A stretch of DNA of 39,307 bases from Candidatus Methanomethylophilaceae archaeon (GTDB taxonomy: Archaea; Thermoplasmatota; Thermoplasmata; Methanomassiliicoccales; Methanomethylophilaceae). The position numbers and the translations under genes are program-made. Positions 1,821 to 8,738 of this stretch are shown one piece after another. The notes under the pieces were generated by a model. It made no database searches. It saw nothing but the letters and a program-made list of their open reading frames with translations, and had not been told where the DNA came from. The DNA lies in assembly GCA_017507885.1 (NCBI GenBank), contig JAFVZY010000107.1, positions 1 to 39,307 on the forward strand. The letters run 5' to 3'. The stretch's first letter is position 1; the number at the start of each line of letters is the position of its first letter.

Positions 1821-1843
1821 TAGTTGGATTCAATATCCAACTA
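1821..1843. promoter_or_regulatory. 9-bp inverted repeat, probable operator of the chlI-chlD operon
   Basis: Arms TAGTTGGAT (1821-1829) and ATCCAACTA (1835-1843) are perfect reverse complements around a 5-nt spacer. The element lies just after an AT-rich TATA-like stretch (about 1808-1817) and before the chlI start at 1863, so it covers the predicted transcription start. That position suits a repressor site. The regulator is not identified. Confidence 0.5.
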
Positions 1844-1862
1844 TACAAATGAAGGTAGAATC

Positions 1863-2888
1863 ATGGAGAAGCTTCTTTTCCCGTTCGTTTCGATCGTCGG
1901 TCAGGACGATATGAAGAAGGCATTGCTCTTGAACATAGTCGATCCCGGAATCGGCGGTGCGTTGATCAAGGGTGAGAAGGGTACGGCCAAATCCACCACC
2001 GTCAGGTCCCTCAATCGCATCCTCCCCTCCCGCAGGTCCGTTTCGGGATGCGTTTTCAACTGCGATCCGTCCAGACCCGACAGGATGTGCCCTCATTGTT
2101 CGGAGAAGATGTCGTCCGGAGTCGTTCCGGAGGAGTCCGAGTCGCAGATGAGGGTGGTGGAACTCCCCCTCAGCGCCACCGAGGACCGTGTGGCCGGGAC
2201 GTTGGACATCGAACACGTCCTCAAGACCGGCGAGAAGAAGTTCGAACCCGGGGTCCTCGCACAGGCGAACGGGAACCTCCTCTATGTGGACGAGGTCAAT
2301 CTTCTCGACGATCACATCGTGGACCTTCTCCTGGATTCAGCGGCAATGGGTGTGAACTACATCGAGAGGGAGGGCGTCTCGTTCTCCCACCCGTCGAGGT
2401 TCATCCTAGTCGGTACCATGAATCCGGAGGAGGGTGAACTCAGGCCGCAGCTCCTGGACAGGTTCGGTCTGTCCGTGGATGTGAAGGGCGACAGGGACAT
2501 GGAGCAGAGGATGGAGGTCGTCCGCAGAAGACTCGCATTCGACACCGATCCCGAGGAGTACACCCGTTCCACATCCGAGGCGTCCGACGAACTTCGTGGA
2601 AGGATCGTCAGGGCCAGGGAGCTTCTTCCGAAGGTCGTCGCCGACGATTCCATACTCAAGGCGGTGGTCACCGTGACCACGAATTTCGGTATAGACGGTC
2701 ACCGTGCCGACATAACCATGATGAAGGCCGCCAAGGCCAATGCGGCACTGGACGGAAGGACGGAGGTCGTGAAGGACGACATCCGTGCGGTGGCGGCGCT
2801 GGTCCTTTCCCATCGCATGAGGAGACGCCCCTTCGAGGAGGAGGCCTTCGACACCGAGGAGCTCGAGAGATGTCTCCAGACGATCTGA
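1863..2888 (+). CDS. chlI: ChlI/BchI-type AAA+ chelatase subunit
   Basis: AAA+ ATPase that forms the motor ring of a metal chelatase with ChlD and drives the CobN/ChlH subunit. The 341-residue product has Walker A GEKGTAKST (residues 37-45), Walker B (YVDEVNLLDD) and an arginine-finger region (LLDRFGLSV). Four cysteines (63, 67, 76, 79) form the probable zinc site found in many archaeal and bacterial ChlI proteins. ATG 1863 is preferred over an in-frame TTG at 1824, because the TTG lies inside the operator and promoter, and GAAGGTAGAATC precedes the ATG. The stop overlaps the chlD start by 19 bp, indicating translational coupling. Cobalt chelation for B12 is the likely job given the methylotrophic context, but Mg chelatase homology alone cannot decide it. 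Confidence 0.9.
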   Translation: MEKLLFPFVSIVGQDDMKKALLLNIVDPGIGGALIKGEKGTAKSTTVRSLNRILPSRRSVSGCVFNCDPSRPDRMCPHCSEKMSSGVVPEESESQMRVVELPLSATEDRVAGTLDIEHVLKTGEKKFEPGVLAQANGNLLYVDEVNLLDDHIVDLLLDSAAMGVNYIEREGVSFSHPSRFILVGTMNPEEGELRPQLLDRFGLSVDVKGDRDMEQRMEVVRRRLAFDTDPEEYTRSTSEASDELRGRIVRARELLPKVVADDSILKAVVTVTTNFGIDGHRADITMMKAAKANAALDGRTEVVKDDIRAVAALVLSHRMRRRPFEEEAFDTEELERCLQTI

Positions 2889-4774
2889 CCTCGTTCCCCT
2901 TCTCCGCCGTATACGGTATGGACGACCCGAAAAGGGCCATACTGTGTGCTTCGGTCAATCCCCGTATCCGTACGGTTCTGATCAGGGGTGGAGCGGGTTC
3001 CGCCAAGACCGTCCTTTCCAGGGCGGCAGGGGTTCTGACCGGAAGGAGGATCGTCAACATCCCGTTGAACGTGAGCGAGGAGCAGCTGTTCGGCGGGATG
3101 GACATCGATGCCACCATCCGCGAGGGGAGACCCGTCGTACAGAAGGGGATACTGGACAGGGCCGACGGCAACATCCTGTACGTGGACGACGTGAATCTTC
3201 TCGATCAAAGGGTTCTGGCCTCCCTGATGGACTGCGTCCTCAGCGGAAGGGTGGTGCTGGAAAGGGAGGGAGTTTCGGGGGAGTATTCCTGCGATACGGT
3301 CCTCATCGCCACCATGAACCCGACCGACTCGGACATCAGCCCCCATATCCTGGACCGTTTCGACCTGTGCGCCTACTCGTCGTTCCCGGAGGAGACCGAT
3401 GGAAGAAGGGAGATCCTGAGAAGGAACATGGATCATCAGACGGATCCTGAAGGTTTCCGCGAGATGTTCGCCGACGAGGAGAGGAAGGTTCGCGACAACG
3501 TGGGGAAGGCCAGGTCGATTCTTCCACTGGTCACCATGTCCGACGACCTGATGGGATTGGCCGTGGAACTGACCGCACGTGTCGGTGCGGACGGTTTCCG
3601 TGGGGACATCGCCATGGTGAACACATCCATGGCCCTGGCGGCATTGAACGGAAGGGACGAGGTTTTAAGGAAGGATGTGGAGGAGGCCGCGATGATATGT
3701 CTCGCACATCGTCGCAACTATGCCCCCGAACCTCCACCACCCGAACCACCCCAGCCTCCGGAACCCCCCGAACAGGACCAGGAACAGCCCGAAGAACCCC
3801 CTTCCCAGGACGAACCCCCAAGGGACGACATGGATCGGGAACCTCCGGAGCAGTCCGACGGCGACGATTCGCGGAACGAACCCCCGGAACCACCCGAACA
3901 GGATTTCCAGGACATGCTCGACGAGATGATGTTCGAGATAGGTGAACAGTTCAAGGTCATCGATTATCTCGACGACGGCCGTCGTGTCGTCCGCAGGTCA
4001 TCCAGCAGGAAGGGTCGCAGGGCCATGGTGGAGAGTTCCGATACCACAGGGCGTTATGCACGTTCCAGACAGGTGGATGGGAAGCCTCGTGACATAGCGT
4101 TCGATGCGACGATACGTGCCGCAGCACCATATCAGAAGGGTAGGGACAGGGGAGATCTGTCAATATCCATCAAAAGTCAGGACATCCGTGTGAAGGTCCG
4201 TGAGAGGCGTTCCGGTTGCACCATACTGTTCCTGGTGGATGCCAGCGGTTCATTGGGTGTCAGGAAAAGGATGTCCGCCGTCAAGGGTGCCGTCCTTTCC
4301 ATGCTAAGGGACAGCTACGTCAAGAGGGACAGGATAGGGATGATGGCGTTCAGACGTGATTCCGCCGAACTCATCCTTCCTCCGACGAGGTCCGTGGAAT
4401 ACAGTTACAGGAAACTGGAGGAGTTGCCCACGGGTGGAAAGACCCCGTTGGGGGAGGCTCTCGTCACCGTCAACGAGTTCATGACGTCGTATTCCCGTTC
4501 GCATCAGGGTGAGATGTGTTACATCGTCCTGATCACCGACGGGCGTGCCAACGTACCGTTGTCGGAGGGTGCGGATGCCAACGAGGAAGCCAGGAAACTG
4601 GCCGGGGAGATGGCGATTCCGCAGGTGGGCTGGATCGTGGTCGACGCCAGCTCAGGATTCGTCAGATTCGACAATGCCCAGAGACTTGCCGAGGAACTCG
4701 GCGGAACCTATTTCAGACTCGAGGATCTCAATGCCGATCGTCTCGCCGAAAGCGTGAGGGCCGCCATCGGATGA
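2870..4774 (+). CDS. chlD: ChlD-type chelatase subunit (AAA+ plus von Willebrand A domain)
   Basis: Partner of ChlI in the chelatase motor. The 634-residue protein has an N-terminal AAA+ domain with Walker A GGAGSAKT (40-47) and Walker B ILYVDDVNLLD. A proline/acidic-rich linker follows at about residues 285-345 (repeated PEPP/PPEP). The C-terminal vWA domain carries the MIDAS motif DASGS near residue 454. In many BchD proteins the ATPase motifs are degenerate, whereas here both Walker motifs look intact. The gene overlaps the end of chlI and ends in a hairpin plus T-run terminator. The low-complexity linker also makes spurious long frames on both strands of the same region. Confidence 0.9.
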   Translation: MSPDDLTSFPFSAVYGMDDPKRAILCASVNPRIRTVLIRGGAGSAKTVLSRAAGVLTGRRIVNIPLNVSEEQLFGGMDIDATIREGRPVVQKGILDRADGNILYVDDVNLLDQRVLASLMDCVLSGRVVLEREGVSGEYSCDTVLIATMNPTDSDISPHILDRFDLCAYSSFPEETDGRREILRRNMDHQTDPEGFREMFADEERKVRDNVGKARSILPLVTMSDDLMGLAVELTARVGADGFRGDIAMVNTSMALAALNGRDEVLRKDVEEAAMICLAHRRNYAPEPPPPEPPQPPEPPEQDQEQPEEPPSQDEPPRDDMDREPPEQSDGDDSRNEPPEPPEQDFQDMLDEMMFEIGEQFKVIDYLDDGRRVVRRSSSRKGRRAMVESSDTTGRYARSRQVDGKPRDIAFDATIRAAAPYQKGRDRGDLSISIKSQDIRVKVRERRSGCTILFLVDASGSLGVRKRMSAVKGAVLSMLRDSYVKRDRIGMMAFRRDSAELILPPTRSVEYSYRKLEELPTGGKTPLGEALVTVNEFMTSYSRSHQGEMCYIVLITDGRANVPLSEGADANEEARKLAGEMAIPQVGWIVVDASSGFVRFDNAQRLAEELGGTYFRLEDLNADRLAESVRAAIG

Positions 4775-4909: not shown

Positions 4910-5033
4910 GGTAGACAGCGTACTTGCGTTCCCGTACGCTTGCGCAATACAGTACAGGCAAATACGCGGGCGGACTTTACTGCCGGGTTCGGGATGGGAC
5001 CGGGTGTTGCCCCGCCGCTATGGCCGTCTTACC
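4910..5033 (-). rRNA. rrf: 5S ribosomal RNA
   Basis: On the minus strand the sequence contains the 5S signature CCCATCCCGAAC within the beta/loop region. The ends pair as helix I: 5' GGTA(A)GAC with 3' GTCTACC, with one bulged A. The length, about 124 nt, is normal for archaeal 5S. No 16S, 23S or ribosomal tRNA lies nearby, so this is an unlinked 5S gene, as known for Thermoplasmata. The ends are inferred from helix I pairing. Confidence 0.92.
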
Positions 5034-5125: not shown

Positions 5126-5848
5126 ATGGAAGACCTCTTTCTGGTATCCATCGCGGTCATTCTGTCCGCTTTGTTCTCATTCGGAGCCCATAGGCTCGGC
5201 ATGCTCACCGCCGACGGTGCCGCGGCATCATTCCTGGTGGGCTCGTTCGTGGGTGTTTTCGGATCGATGAGTGCCTTCATACTCATGACGATCTTCACAG
5301 TCTCCGGTTTCGCCGCGACGGCCAAGGGTTTGAAGGACAAGGAGGCGAGGGGTCTTCAGGAAGGAAAACACGGGGAACGTACATGGAGGAACATAGCCGG
5401 GGTGGGAATCGCACCCTGTGCGGTCGTCCTGTTGAACATTCTTGTCGATTTGGATCCCTTGATGTTCGAAGTCATGTTCATATCCACGATGACAGTGGCC
5501 GGTGCGGATACGATAGCATCGGAGATCGGGGTGAGGGACCCCAAGGTCTACCTGATCACAACGTTCGAAAGGGTGGAACCCGGAACCAACGGCGGGATAT
5601 CGCTCTTCGGTACGGCAGTATCATCGATGGCGTCCCTGGGAATCGCCGTTCTGGGATGGGTCATCATGACACAGGGTCTGGATCCGTTGTTGCTGATTCC
5701 GTTCGTGGCGGGTGTGTTCGGGAATCTGATGGACAGCGTGTTCGGGGTGCTTCTCGAAGATAGGGGTTACATCTCCAAGTATTCCAACAATTGTTCCACT
5801 GCAATTCTCGGAGCCTTGTTCGGCGCCTTGATCCTCATGGTCCTGTGA
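5126..5848 (+). CDS. DUF92 family membrane protein (VTE6-like, predicted prenyl-phosphate kinase)
   Basis: Integral membrane protein of 240 residues, mostly hydrophobic, matching the DUF92/TIGR00297 family in length and in conserved segments (LTADGAAASFLVGS; ADTIASEIG; GNLMDSVFG). The plant member VTE6 is linked to phosphorylating phytyl phosphate to the diphosphate. By analogy the archaeal enzyme may convert a prenyl monophosphate to the diphosphate. A VTE5-like kinase and a UbiA prenyltransferase lie within 3 kb, which supports a prenyl salvage role, but this is inference. A TATA-like box TTTTTATAAC (about 5095-5104) lies about 26 bp before the ATG, so the mRNA is probably leaderless. Its stop codon abuts the convergent PAP2 gene's stop (TGATCA). 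Confidence 0.82.
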   Translation: MEDLFLVSIAVILSALFSFGAHRLGMLTADGAAASFLVGSFVGVFGSMSAFILMTIFTVSGFAATAKGLKDKEARGLQEGKHGERTWRNIAGVGIAPCAVVLLNILVDLDPLMFEVMFISTMTVAGADTIASEIGVRDPKVYLITTFERVEPGTNGGISLFGTAVSSMASLGIAVLGWVIMTQGLDPLLLIPFVAGVFGNLMDSVFGVLLEDRGYISKYSNNCSTAILGALFGALILMVL

Positions 5849-6472
5849 TCAGAGCATCAGGAGGAACACGAGGGTCGTCAGAATCCCGCCGAACAGGGCA
5901 CCTCCGACTATCTGTGCGGGCGTGTGCTTCTTCTGATAGTATCTGCATATGGCGATGGCGGGAAGAAGGAGCATGTACAGGAACCCGTAGGGCGGATATG
6001 CAATGCCCAGGGCGATGGATGGGCCCATGATCCCCGTGGCGTGGATGCTGATCTTCCAACGGGTGCTTATGAGCATGATTGAGAATGTGCATAATGCATA
6101 GCAGATCATGAGGACCGTTATCAGCCAGGGGGCATCGATCAACCATAATGCGACGACGCCTACGGCATAGCACACGGTCCCTATCAGAAGAGGCATGAAG
6201 CGGTCCTCCCTGCGGTATATGTCCCCGTCGTCGTTGTTGAATTTGACGGAGTAGTAATGGACGTTGATGATGGGCAGGACCACCGCCGTTACGAGGCACA
6301 CGGCCATCGTCATGAGACAATCCATGGTGTTCTGGATGGACAGGCACAGGAGGATGAATGTGGGTATGGACAGGATGGTCGGCTGTGTGACGAAGGATAC
6401 GGCTTTGGCGACCCTCATCGCCCCCGGGGATATCTCCCCCTGGAATTTGTCGGTGGGATCATGCATCGTCAT
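5849..6472 (-). CDS. PAP2-superfamily membrane phosphatase-like protein
   Basis: Protein of 207 residues with about six membrane segments and remnants of the PAP2 lipid-phosphatase signature. These are a DRFMPL block where KxxxxxxRP is expected, RWKISIHATG where the SGH motif is expected, and a C-terminal YYQKKHTPAQIVGG block holding the third motif histidine. Several canonical catalytic positions are changed, so activity on a prenyl or lipid phosphate is plausible but unproven. ATG 6472 overlaps the end of the upstream kinase gene and follows GGAGACGG. It is the third gene of a minus-strand operon (VTE5-like kinase, P-loop kinase, PAP2), which suggests a role in polyprenyl-phosphate metabolism. 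Confidence 0.72.
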   Translation of the reverse strand: MTMHDPTDKFQGEISPGAMRVAKAVSFVTQPTILSIPTFILLCLSIQNTMDCLMTMAVCLVTAVVLPIINVHYYSVKFNNDDGDIYRREDRFMPLLIGTVCYAVGVVALWLIDAPWLITVLMICYALCTFSIMLISTRWKISIHATGIMGPSIALGIAYPPYGFLYMLLLPAIAICRYYQKKHTPAQIVGGALFGGILTTLVFLLML

Positions 6473-7067
6473 CCGTCTCCGGTGTAAAATCGCCATTTTC
6501 AACGCGATCCTTCACATGTCCGATCTGTCTTATCGTATCCTCCAATGATCCGTTGTTGTCGATGATGTACCATCCCCTGGTCAGGGAGATCATCTTTTCA
6601 CGTGTTTTCCGCAGTTTCTCACGGGTTTCGAATATCTCCCTGTCTTCTCCACGGGATTCGATCCTGTCGAACGCGGTATCCGCATCCACATCGACCATGA
6701 TCCTGACATCCGGCATCGGTAGGATCCTCTCTATGATGTCGTATGCCTTCCTGTAGATGCCGTCCGGGAGGTATGCTACGGCCATGATGTATCTGACGAA
6801 GATGAAATCGTCGTACCTTACGCGGGAGGTCCTCATCTTCATCACGGATTGGACCGCATCCAGGATGTACAGCATCGTGGCTATGATCTCGGATGGTTTT
6901 CCGGGGATCTTGAGGAATCTCGCCTCCGCCCTTCCGAACCAACATCCCTGGTCGGGATGGGTGACGATGAACACCCTGCGCCCATCGGATTCCAACATGT
7001 CTTTCAGGGCTTCCGCCGCGGAGGATTTTCCGGATCCGTCCATCCCGTCCACGATGTACCAGGTCAT
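6459..7067 (-). CDS. Thymidylate-kinase-like P-loop kinase
   Basis: Protein of 202 residues with a P-loop DGMDGSGKSS near the N-terminus, a TMK-type fold and a lid region rich in Arg/Lys (SRGEDREIFETREKLRKT). It resembles thymidylate kinase (dTMP to dTDP) but lies between a phytol-kinase-like gene and a PAP2 gene. Its true substrate could therefore be dTMP or another monophosphate. The ATG at 7067 is 4 nt past the upstream stop; an in-frame GTG at 7079 lies inside the upstream gene. Whether this is the organism's only TMK cannot be told from this window. Confidence 0.75.
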   Translation of the reverse strand: MTWYIVDGMDGSGKSSAAEALKDMLESDGRRVFIVTHPDQGCWFGRAEARFLKIPGKPSEIIATMLYILDAVQSVMKMRTSRVRYDDFIFVRYIMAVAYLPDGIYRKAYDIIERILPMPDVRIMVDVDADTAFDRIESRGEDREIFETREKLRKTREKMISLTRGWYIIDNNGSLEDTIRQIGHVKDRVENGDFTPETDDDA

Positions 7068-7071
7068 ATGT

Positions 7072-7773
7072 TCACACACCTATGAGCACCATCGATGTCG
7101 CGACACACAGGGATATCGCGAGGTTGTCCACCTTTCCCGGACAGAACGCCTCGACCAGCATCGCCACGAATCCCGCTATCGCACATGCGCACCATGCGGG
7201 GAGGGCGCTTCCGTAGACGTCTCCCGTATACGCCCCGATGGATGCGAGGTATCCGTAAAGACTGATCAGGACGAATCCGACGATGGCGGTGGCGGCGAAC
7301 ACCCCTAGGGACCCTTCGATGGATTTTCCTCCGAGTCCCCTGTGTCTTCCGAACCTTTTCCCGATGACGCTTCCGAATCCGTCTCCATAGGTCATCGCGA
7401 CCATTCCGATGGATGCCGCGATCCAGTGGTCCCTGAACACGACTATCATTACGCCTATGCTGAGGGCGTACAGGAACAGGCCCGTGCGATGACCCATCTT
7501 GTTGGAGATGTCGCCCAGTCTGGATCTGGATACGACATTCCCTTCGAACATCGCAATGAACAGGAGGATGGAGAACGGTATGGCGAAGAAGGCCAGCATG
7601 ATCCAACCTTCGGAGAACATCCACCATACGAACACGAAGTTTCCGACGCCGATATGGACTATCTTGCGTGAATCCGCATTCGGAAAACGTCTCTTCACCA
7701 ATTCGCTGGCTATCAGGGATACGCCGATTATGGCGTAGACCAGTACCAGTGCAATTACGTCCTGTTCATTCAT
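7072..7773 (-). CDS. Dolichol/phytol kinase-like membrane protein (VTE5-like)
   Basis: Membrane protein of 233 residues of the dolichol kinase/phytol kinase/CDP-diglyceride synthetase-like family. Diagnostic segments are SRKIVHIGVGNF near the N-terminus, a central YGDGFGSVIGKRFG, then GGKSIEGSLG (the KxxEGS nucleotide-binding signature), and a late VEAFCPGKVDN block. The VTE5 family phosphorylates prenyl alcohols using CTP. In an archaeon the natural substrate would be geranylgeraniol or a polyprenol; this is inferred. It is the first gene of the minus-strand operon. A TATA-like stretch (GTTTATAAC, about 7814-7822) lies roughly 42 bp before the ATG. Confidence 0.8.
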   Translation of the reverse strand: MNEQDVIALVLVYAIIGVSLIASELVKRRFPNADSRKIVHIGVGNFVFVWWMFSEGWIMLAFFAIPFSILLFIAMFEGNVVSRSRLGDISNKMGHRTGLFLYALSIGVMIVVFRDHWIAASIGMVAMTYGDGFGSVIGKRFGRHRGLGGKSIEGSLGVFAATAIVGFVLISLYGYLASIGAYTGDVYGSALPAWCACAIAGFVAMLVEAFCPGKVDNLAISLCVATSMVLIGV

Positions 7774-7919
7774 CGGATGGGCCCCGTTCTTCCGAAATGA
7801 AGGGTTTGCATGTTATAAACATAGTGCGTTTTCCTCGTGCGGTTCAACGATGTTTCCCATTTTCAGAATGGTCCGAGTCCTGGGTAAAGATAATATCATC
7901 GGGTCTGCATCGCCATGAC

Positions 7920-8738
7920 GTGAACAGATATCTGCAGTTATTCAGGACGGGTAATGCGTTGATGGGAATCATCGGCGTGGTCGTGGCGGCATTCATGGCT
8001 GCGGGAACGGACATCGTCGATCATCCGTTGAATCTGATTCTGTCCGCTGTGGTGGTGTTCCTTTTCATATGTGGTGGCAACGCCCTGAATGACGGTATAG
8101 ATGCGGTCATCGATCGTACCGCCCATCCGGAGCGTCCCGTGCCCATGGGCCTGATGACCGCCGAACATGCCAAGAACGTGGGTTTGTCCATGCTCCTGCT
8201 GGCCATGGGGGTCTCCCTGTTCACCTTCGATCTCGTTTGCATCGTCATCGTCGTGATCGCCGCCCTTCTCATGATCGCCTATGAGACCATGTTGAAACAG
8301 AGGGGATTCGTGGGAAACGTGACCATCGCGATCATGACCGGATTGATGTTCGTCCTCGGAGGTGCGGTCGTGGGTCATGCGCAGGACAACATCATCGTCG
8401 GTCTGATGGCCATGCTGGTCTCCATAGGTAGGGAGATCGCCAAGGATATAGAGGACATGGATGGCGACGAGGGCAGGTCCACTCTGCCCATGAGGATCGG
8501 TGTCCGTGCGTCCTCCGCACTGGCATGCGTCTTCTTCGTGGCCGGCCCCGTACTCAGCATCGCACCCATGATATGGCAGACGTATGGCATTCTGTATTAT
8601 GCGGTGGTCGTCGCCGATCTGATGTTTCTGTATTGCGCCATCAGGGTGTTCACGGATCCGCATATGGCTCAGAGCATGGCGAAGAAGGCGATGTTCGTCG
8701 CATTGCTGGCGTTCATTCTCGGGGTGTTGCCCTTCTGA
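7920..8738 (+). CDS. UbiA-family prenyltransferase, probable digeranylgeranylglyceryl phosphate synthase
   Basis: Attaches a geranylgeranyl group from GGPP in a membrane reaction. DGGGP synthase, the second ether-lipid step, is the usual archaeal role. The 272-residue product has both aspartate-rich UbiA motifs, NDGIDAVID and DIEDMDGDEG, and about eight membrane segments. GTG 7920 (VNRYLQLFRTGNA) is chosen because it aligns with the family start. The frame stays open upstream to 7668, but that part lies over the divergent gene and its promoter. An AT-rich TATA-like stretch at about 7885-7897 suggests a very short or absent leader. Other UbiA substrates cannot be ruled out. Confidence 0.85.
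   Translation: MNRYLQLFRTGNALMGIIGVVVAAFMAAGTDIVDHPLNLILSAVVVFLFICGGNALNDGIDAVIDRTAHPERPVPMGLMTAEHAKNVGLSMLLLAMGVSLFTFDLVCIVIVVIAALLMIAYETMLKQRGFVGNVTIAIMTGLMFVLGGAVVGHAQDNIIVGLMAMLVSIGREIAKDIEDMDGDEGRSTLPMRIGVRASSALACVFFVAGPVLSIAPMIWQTYGILYYAVVVADLMFLYCAIRVFTDPHMAQSMAKKAMFVALLAFILGVLPF

Follow-up and report, generated by a model that had tools for sequence, protein, structure and literature searches.

A VTE5-like membrane protein and a diverged thymidylate kinase form a conserved gene pair in several archaeal phyla and are candidate enzymes of prenol salvage

In several archaeal phyla, a gene for a VTE5-like integral membrane protein is followed by a gene for a diverged, thymidylate kinase-like P-loop kinase (TMKL), and it is this pair and not a five-gene cluster that forms the conserved unit. 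We give about even chances to the reading that both proteins act in a lipid-alcohol kinase relay, in which the VTE5-like protein would make a prenyl phosphate and TMKL the diphosphate. The pair is encoded in the window (the whole stretch of 39,307 nucleotides that was analysed), which derives from a methanogen (genes for mcrA and mcrB lie in the window; the assembly comprises 1.64 Mb) and has its relatives among Candidatus Methanomethylophilaceae and other Methanomassiliicoccales. An earlier note on this DNA had described a candidate prenol salvage cluster of five genes, encoding a DUF92 protein, a PAP2-type phosphatase, TMKL, the VTE5-like protein and a UbiA prenyltransferase. All five open reading frames are present within 5126-8738 and placed as given there, and the link between the VTE5-like gene and TMKL was confirmed, but the grouping with DUF92 did not hold, as DUF92 belongs to a separate pyrB-pyrI block in relatives. 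Upstream of the five genes, two chelatase-type genes (BchI/ChlI-like and AAA plus VWA-domain) lie side by side at 1824-4774 (plus strand). A lone 5S rRNA gene (4910-5031, minus strand; Rfam RF00001, 86 bits) separates the chelatase D-like gene from DUF92, and no 16S or 23S rRNA was found in the window.

The VTE5-like gene (7072-7773, minus strand; 233 aa) was assigned to the SEC59/DGK1/CdsA-like membrane proteins by motifs and an AlphaFold model. Its product had no match in Pfam or NCBIfam, and a sequence search of the PDB gave nothing. It carries the pattern GDG ... EG ... E-x-x-x-P-G-x-x-D-N, which we take to be that of the VTE5/SEC59 family, with invariant aspartates at D131 (GDG) and D216 (DN). 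The model (pLDDT 90.5) depicts a multi-helix membrane protein with nine helices, and its top four PDB matches in a Foldseek search were the CDP-DAG synthase TmCdsA (including 4q2g and 4q2e), with probabilities of 0.99-1.00, yet with E-values of 0.016-0.043 and TM-scores of 0.38-0.39. Motifs and model together suggest that the protein is probably a lipid-alcohol kinase of the phytol/dolichol-kinase type. Characterised relatives of VTE5 use lipid alcohols as substrates, and their donor is usually CTP (PMC9782597).

TMKL (6459-7067, minus strand, in an open reading frame of 6459-7079) likely starts with the ATG at 7067, 4 nt past the stop of the VTE5-like gene. It falls in the Thymidylate_kin family (PF02223, E=6.7e-24) and scores 52.5 bits against the dTMP kinase equivalog TIGR00041, far below the cut-off of 83.25. 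The ADR Arg and the AYQ Gln of dTMP kinase (Tmk) read dTMP. While TMKL shares the fold family and the P-loop with Tmk and keeps the Arg of DRY, these specificity residues are lost: the ADR Arg, found in 27/27 canonical Tmk, is Val or Ala, and the AYQ Gln (25/27) is replaced by Leu in all 28 TMKL sequences. In addition, the Asp of DRY (20/27 canonical Tmk) has become Val and the Glu of REP has become His. With Val/Leu/Val in place of the Arg/Gln/Asp of Tmk, the pocket of TMKL is, judging from these substitutions, of lower polarity. It could be argued that TMKL is simply a second dTMP kinase of the ordinary kind, placed beside the VTE5-like gene incidentally, as it is annotated as Thymidylate_kin and every PDB match is to a TMK or a deoxynucleoside kinase. 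This is highly improbable, since a separate canonical Tmk is encoded elsewhere in the same genome, the residues that read dTMP are lost and the linkage to the VTE5-like gene is kept across phyla. A role as the housekeeping Tmk is ruled out by the separate canonical Tmk and the lost residues, and the same two findings answer, at the level of sequence, the concern of the earlier note that the kinase might be active on dTMP.

The pair was found in Thermoplasmatota, Archaeoglobi and other Halobacteriota, Bathyarchaeota, Methanobacteriota and Methanofastidiosa. Among the named genomes, TMKL comes after the VTE5-like gene in Thermoplasmatota, Bathyarchaeota, Archaeoglobi, Methanofastidiosa and a Methanobrevibacter, and the gap between the genes amounts to -1 to +26 nt in 47 of 48 head-to-tail pairs, an operon-like arrangement. 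At a cut-off of 80 bits, 40 of 150 Thermoplasmata genomes encoded the VTE5-like protein. TMKL lies directly after it on the same strand in 34 of these, is convergent in one, is found elsewhere in three and is absent in two, so that 38/40 carry TMKL somewhere in the genome (co-occurrence over the 150 genomes p=3e-25, calculated as if genomes were independent, which they are not). In the Halobacteriota sample, 9/9 strong VTE5-like genes adjoin one of ten TMKL genes (p=1e-13 under the same assumption). The Thermoproteota sample contained few TMKL-clade genes (4/151); of its five strong VTE5-like genes, three adjoin TMKL, with one of these pairs broken by stops. Methanobrevibacter genomes with an unlinked TMKL encode the VTE5-like protein elsewhere (13/13). 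More weight than on the p-values is placed on the adjacency itself, which is kept across phyla at 30-40% identity. The distances of TMKL and VTE5-like proteins are also correlated (Mantel r=0.85, 0/999 permutations), although shared genome history alone would raise r too.

Exceptions were observed in both directions. Eight genomes (G014, G068, G091, G130, G310, G339, G484 and G485), some being incomplete MAGs, contain TMKL but no detected VTE5-like gene; conversely, two Thermoplasmata from a single family and two Thermoproteota contain VTE5-like genes but no TMKL. A TMKL paralogue near deoxyhypusine synthase shows that members of the TMKL family also occur apart from VTE5-like proteins, which counts against the relay. 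Paralogues without a VTE5-like gene were seen in L192, L197, L178, L204, L209 and G000:C92; in L192 the adjacent gene resembles deoxyhypusine synthase. At one thermoproteotal locus (G181:C2:31481-32738), both genes are broken by stops, as if they had decayed together. Automatic clustering of the genes around the pair was partly contaminated by antisense ORFs. Its recurring real neighbours, a cation-diffusion-facilitator-like gene and deoxyhypusine synthase, are not lipid-related and were given no weight.

Tmk-fold kinases phosphorylate phosphomonoesters. As to substrates, phosphate donor and reaction order, we infer that the membrane-bound VTE5-like protein would act first and use an NTP (in characterised relatives CTP) to phosphorylate the hydroxyl group of an isoprenoid alcohol, most likely geranylgeraniol from ether-lipid turnover or, alternatively, a longer polyprenol. 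Soluble TMKL, derived from dTMP kinase and with its thymidine recognition gone, would then convert the prenyl monophosphate to the diphosphate. A C20 prenol, longer prenols and archaeol-like lipids are all compatible with the data as presumed substrates. Alternatively, the VTE5-like protein could be a dolichol/polyprenol or archaeol kinase, as its superfamily includes dolichol and diacylglycerol kinases, and TMKL could be a partner with another small substrate, e.g. an NMP kinase that serves nucleotide-activated sugars or the NTP pool. Its retained P-loop and LID Arg residues, as are usual in NMP kinases, would speak for this. We find this arrangement rather doubtful, because the tight pairing of the two genes suggests a hand-off of substrate, the genome encodes a separate canonical Tmk, and the comparison of neighbouring genes revealed no recognisable glycosylation genes next to the pair.

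DUF92/COG1836 (5126-5848, plus strand; PF01940, E=4.9e-46) encodes a VTE6-like membrane protein, which in the pathway of the earlier note would turn the prenyl phosphate made by the VTE5-like protein into the diphosphate, leaving another role to TMKL. Plant phytyl-phosphate kinase belongs to the DUF92 family, and DUF92 and the VTE5-like gene lie near each other in the window and in four close relatives. Archaeal DUF92 proteins were earlier predicted to be isoprenoid kinases, and in Methanosarcina barkeri (Mbar_A3310) a DUF92 protein (arCOG02245) is fused to a COG0170 domain, linking DUF92 to a SEC59-like domain (PMC5898192). Unlike in this fusion, DUF92 and VTE5-like genes are independent of each other in the class to which the window belongs: DUF92 is present in 132/150 Thermoplasmata genomes irrespective of the VTE5-like gene (35/40 with versus 97/110 without, p=1), and the co-occurrence by which the earlier note had proposed to check its pathway in Thermoplasmatota was thus not observed. 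Its conserved context in the family is pyrB-pyrI-UPF0200-ORF-DUF92, with DUF92 closing the block, and the VTE5-TMKL pair (in part with PAP2 and UbiA) lies tens to hundreds of kb away or on another contig. Only in the window genome and its four relatives, a rumen subclade, do the two come close (directly joined in L137 and L141, within about 4.5 kb in L135 and L136), which is a rearrangement at the level of the clade. Moreover, DUF92 is transcribed convergently to the VTE5-like and TMKL genes in the window, hence not co-operonic with them. Six of seven Bathyarchaeota with the VTE5-TMKL pair have no detectable DUF92, so it is dispensable to the pair.

DUF92 is therefore a neighbour that does not regularly belong to the module, and a second step performed by DUF92 with TMKL in another role is an unlikely reading. 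TMKL more likely performs this step, because it is the constant partner of the VTE5-like protein across phyla, including Bathyarchaeota without DUF92. From the two-step pathway of the earlier note, prenol salvage is thus retained in part, with the second step reassigned to TMKL by linkage, co-occurrence and active-site residues. DUF92 as an obligate partner of the VTE5-like protein is ruled out by co-occurrence (p=1) and synteny, and so is the five-gene cluster as one operon, which consists of two conserved blocks joined in the rumen subclade. A profile comparison of VTE5-like and DUF92 alignments gave no significant match (probability 1.5), leaving homology between the two steps of the earlier note's pathway unsupported. 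The segment UbiA-VTE5-TMKL-PAP2-DUF92 is inverted as a unit in the window compared to L137 and L141, by inversion or as an assembly artefact. The DUF92 proteins of Archaeoglobi (L245-L247) are extended at the N-terminus by a membrane domain of ~165 residues, which was not recognised by the VTE5-like profile.

UbiA (7920-8738, plus strand; PF01040, E=1.1e-33) is divergent from the VTE5-like gene, an arrangement found in the genus of the window and one neighbouring genus, and probably starts with the GTG at 7920 rather than at 7668. It contains the NDxxDxxxD motif and best matches DGGGP-synthase models (NF009521, E=7e-61, below its 296-bit cut-off). As the only other UbiA of the genome, beside a UbiE-like methyltransferase, is MenA-like, the UbiA of the window would be of the DGGGP-synthase type. 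The diphosphate produced by the relay could feed this adjacent enzyme in this lineage, and the neighbourhood of such a UbiA and a lipid-alcohol kinase fits the idea of prenol salvage put forward in the earlier note. The PAP2-superfamily-like membrane phosphatase (5849-6472, minus strand, in an open reading frame of 5849-6502) would work in the opposite direction, on prenyl or lipid phosphates. Its Pfam match is weak (E=0.001, below the Pfam cut-off), its PAP2-type motifs SR-x5-H and S-x-H are conserved, and several top Foldseek matches of its model in the PDB are PAP2 enzymes (such as PgpB, LPP1 and LpxE; all with E>0.3). Both UbiA and PAP2 are linked to the VTE5-TMKL pair only within Methanomethylophilaceae, where PAP2 forms the third gene of the run.

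The proposed relay follows the same two-step logic from alcohol to diphosphate as phytol salvage in plants by phytol kinase (VTE5) and phytyl-phosphate kinase (VTE6), with a first enzyme of the VTE5/SEC59 type. It differs in the second, which is a membrane DUF92 protein in plants and would be a soluble, Tmk-derived P-loop kinase in archaea. Geranylgeraniol (GGOH) and geranylgeranyl phosphate (GGP) kinase activities have been known in archaea since 1996. In the account of PMC9782597 (citing Ohnuma 1996), GGOH is converted to GGP in membranes of Sulfolobus acidocaldarius and GGP to GGPP in the cytosol, the same distribution as predicted for the VTE5-like protein and TMKL. No DUF92 was found in the S. 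acidocaldarius control genome; together with the cytosolic second step this implies that a soluble GGP kinase other than DUF92 exists in archaea. The likeness is one of analogy and no orthology is claimed, as the rarity of TMKL-clade genes in Thermoproteota means that the Sulfolobus enzyme need not be TMKL. Somewhat more tentatively than the relay itself, we suggest that TMKL might represent a new family of prenyl-phosphate kinases, i.e. Tmk-fold P-loop enzymes working on lipid phosphates that replace VTE6 in a two-step salvage relay of several archaeal phyla, and a gene candidate for the cytosolic GGP kinase activity of the 1996 type. A nucleotide kinase would then have been repurposed for a lipid, and annotations as dTMP kinase and dolichol kinase would need correction in a number of archaeal phyla.

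A 2022 review of archaeal lipid synthesis names GGOH and GGP kinases only as activities (PMC9385802), and no paper joining the VTE5-like and TMKL genes into one pathway was found in the open-licence literature. The conserved module offers directly testable gene candidates, including an apparent locus in Methanobrevibacter smithii, where the dolichol kinase gene msm_0078 has cofH on one side and the thymidylate kinase gene msm_0077 on the other. The two kinase genes were annotated separately and no pathway was proposed for them (PMC12134362); they have the same neighbours and order beside cofH as in Methanobrevibacter L173, to which they are likened by gene order. One border of a 2.9-kb excised circular DNA published for M. 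smithii (msm_0077-msm_0081, PMC12134362) falls within the TMK-like gene at this apparent VTE5-TMKL locus.
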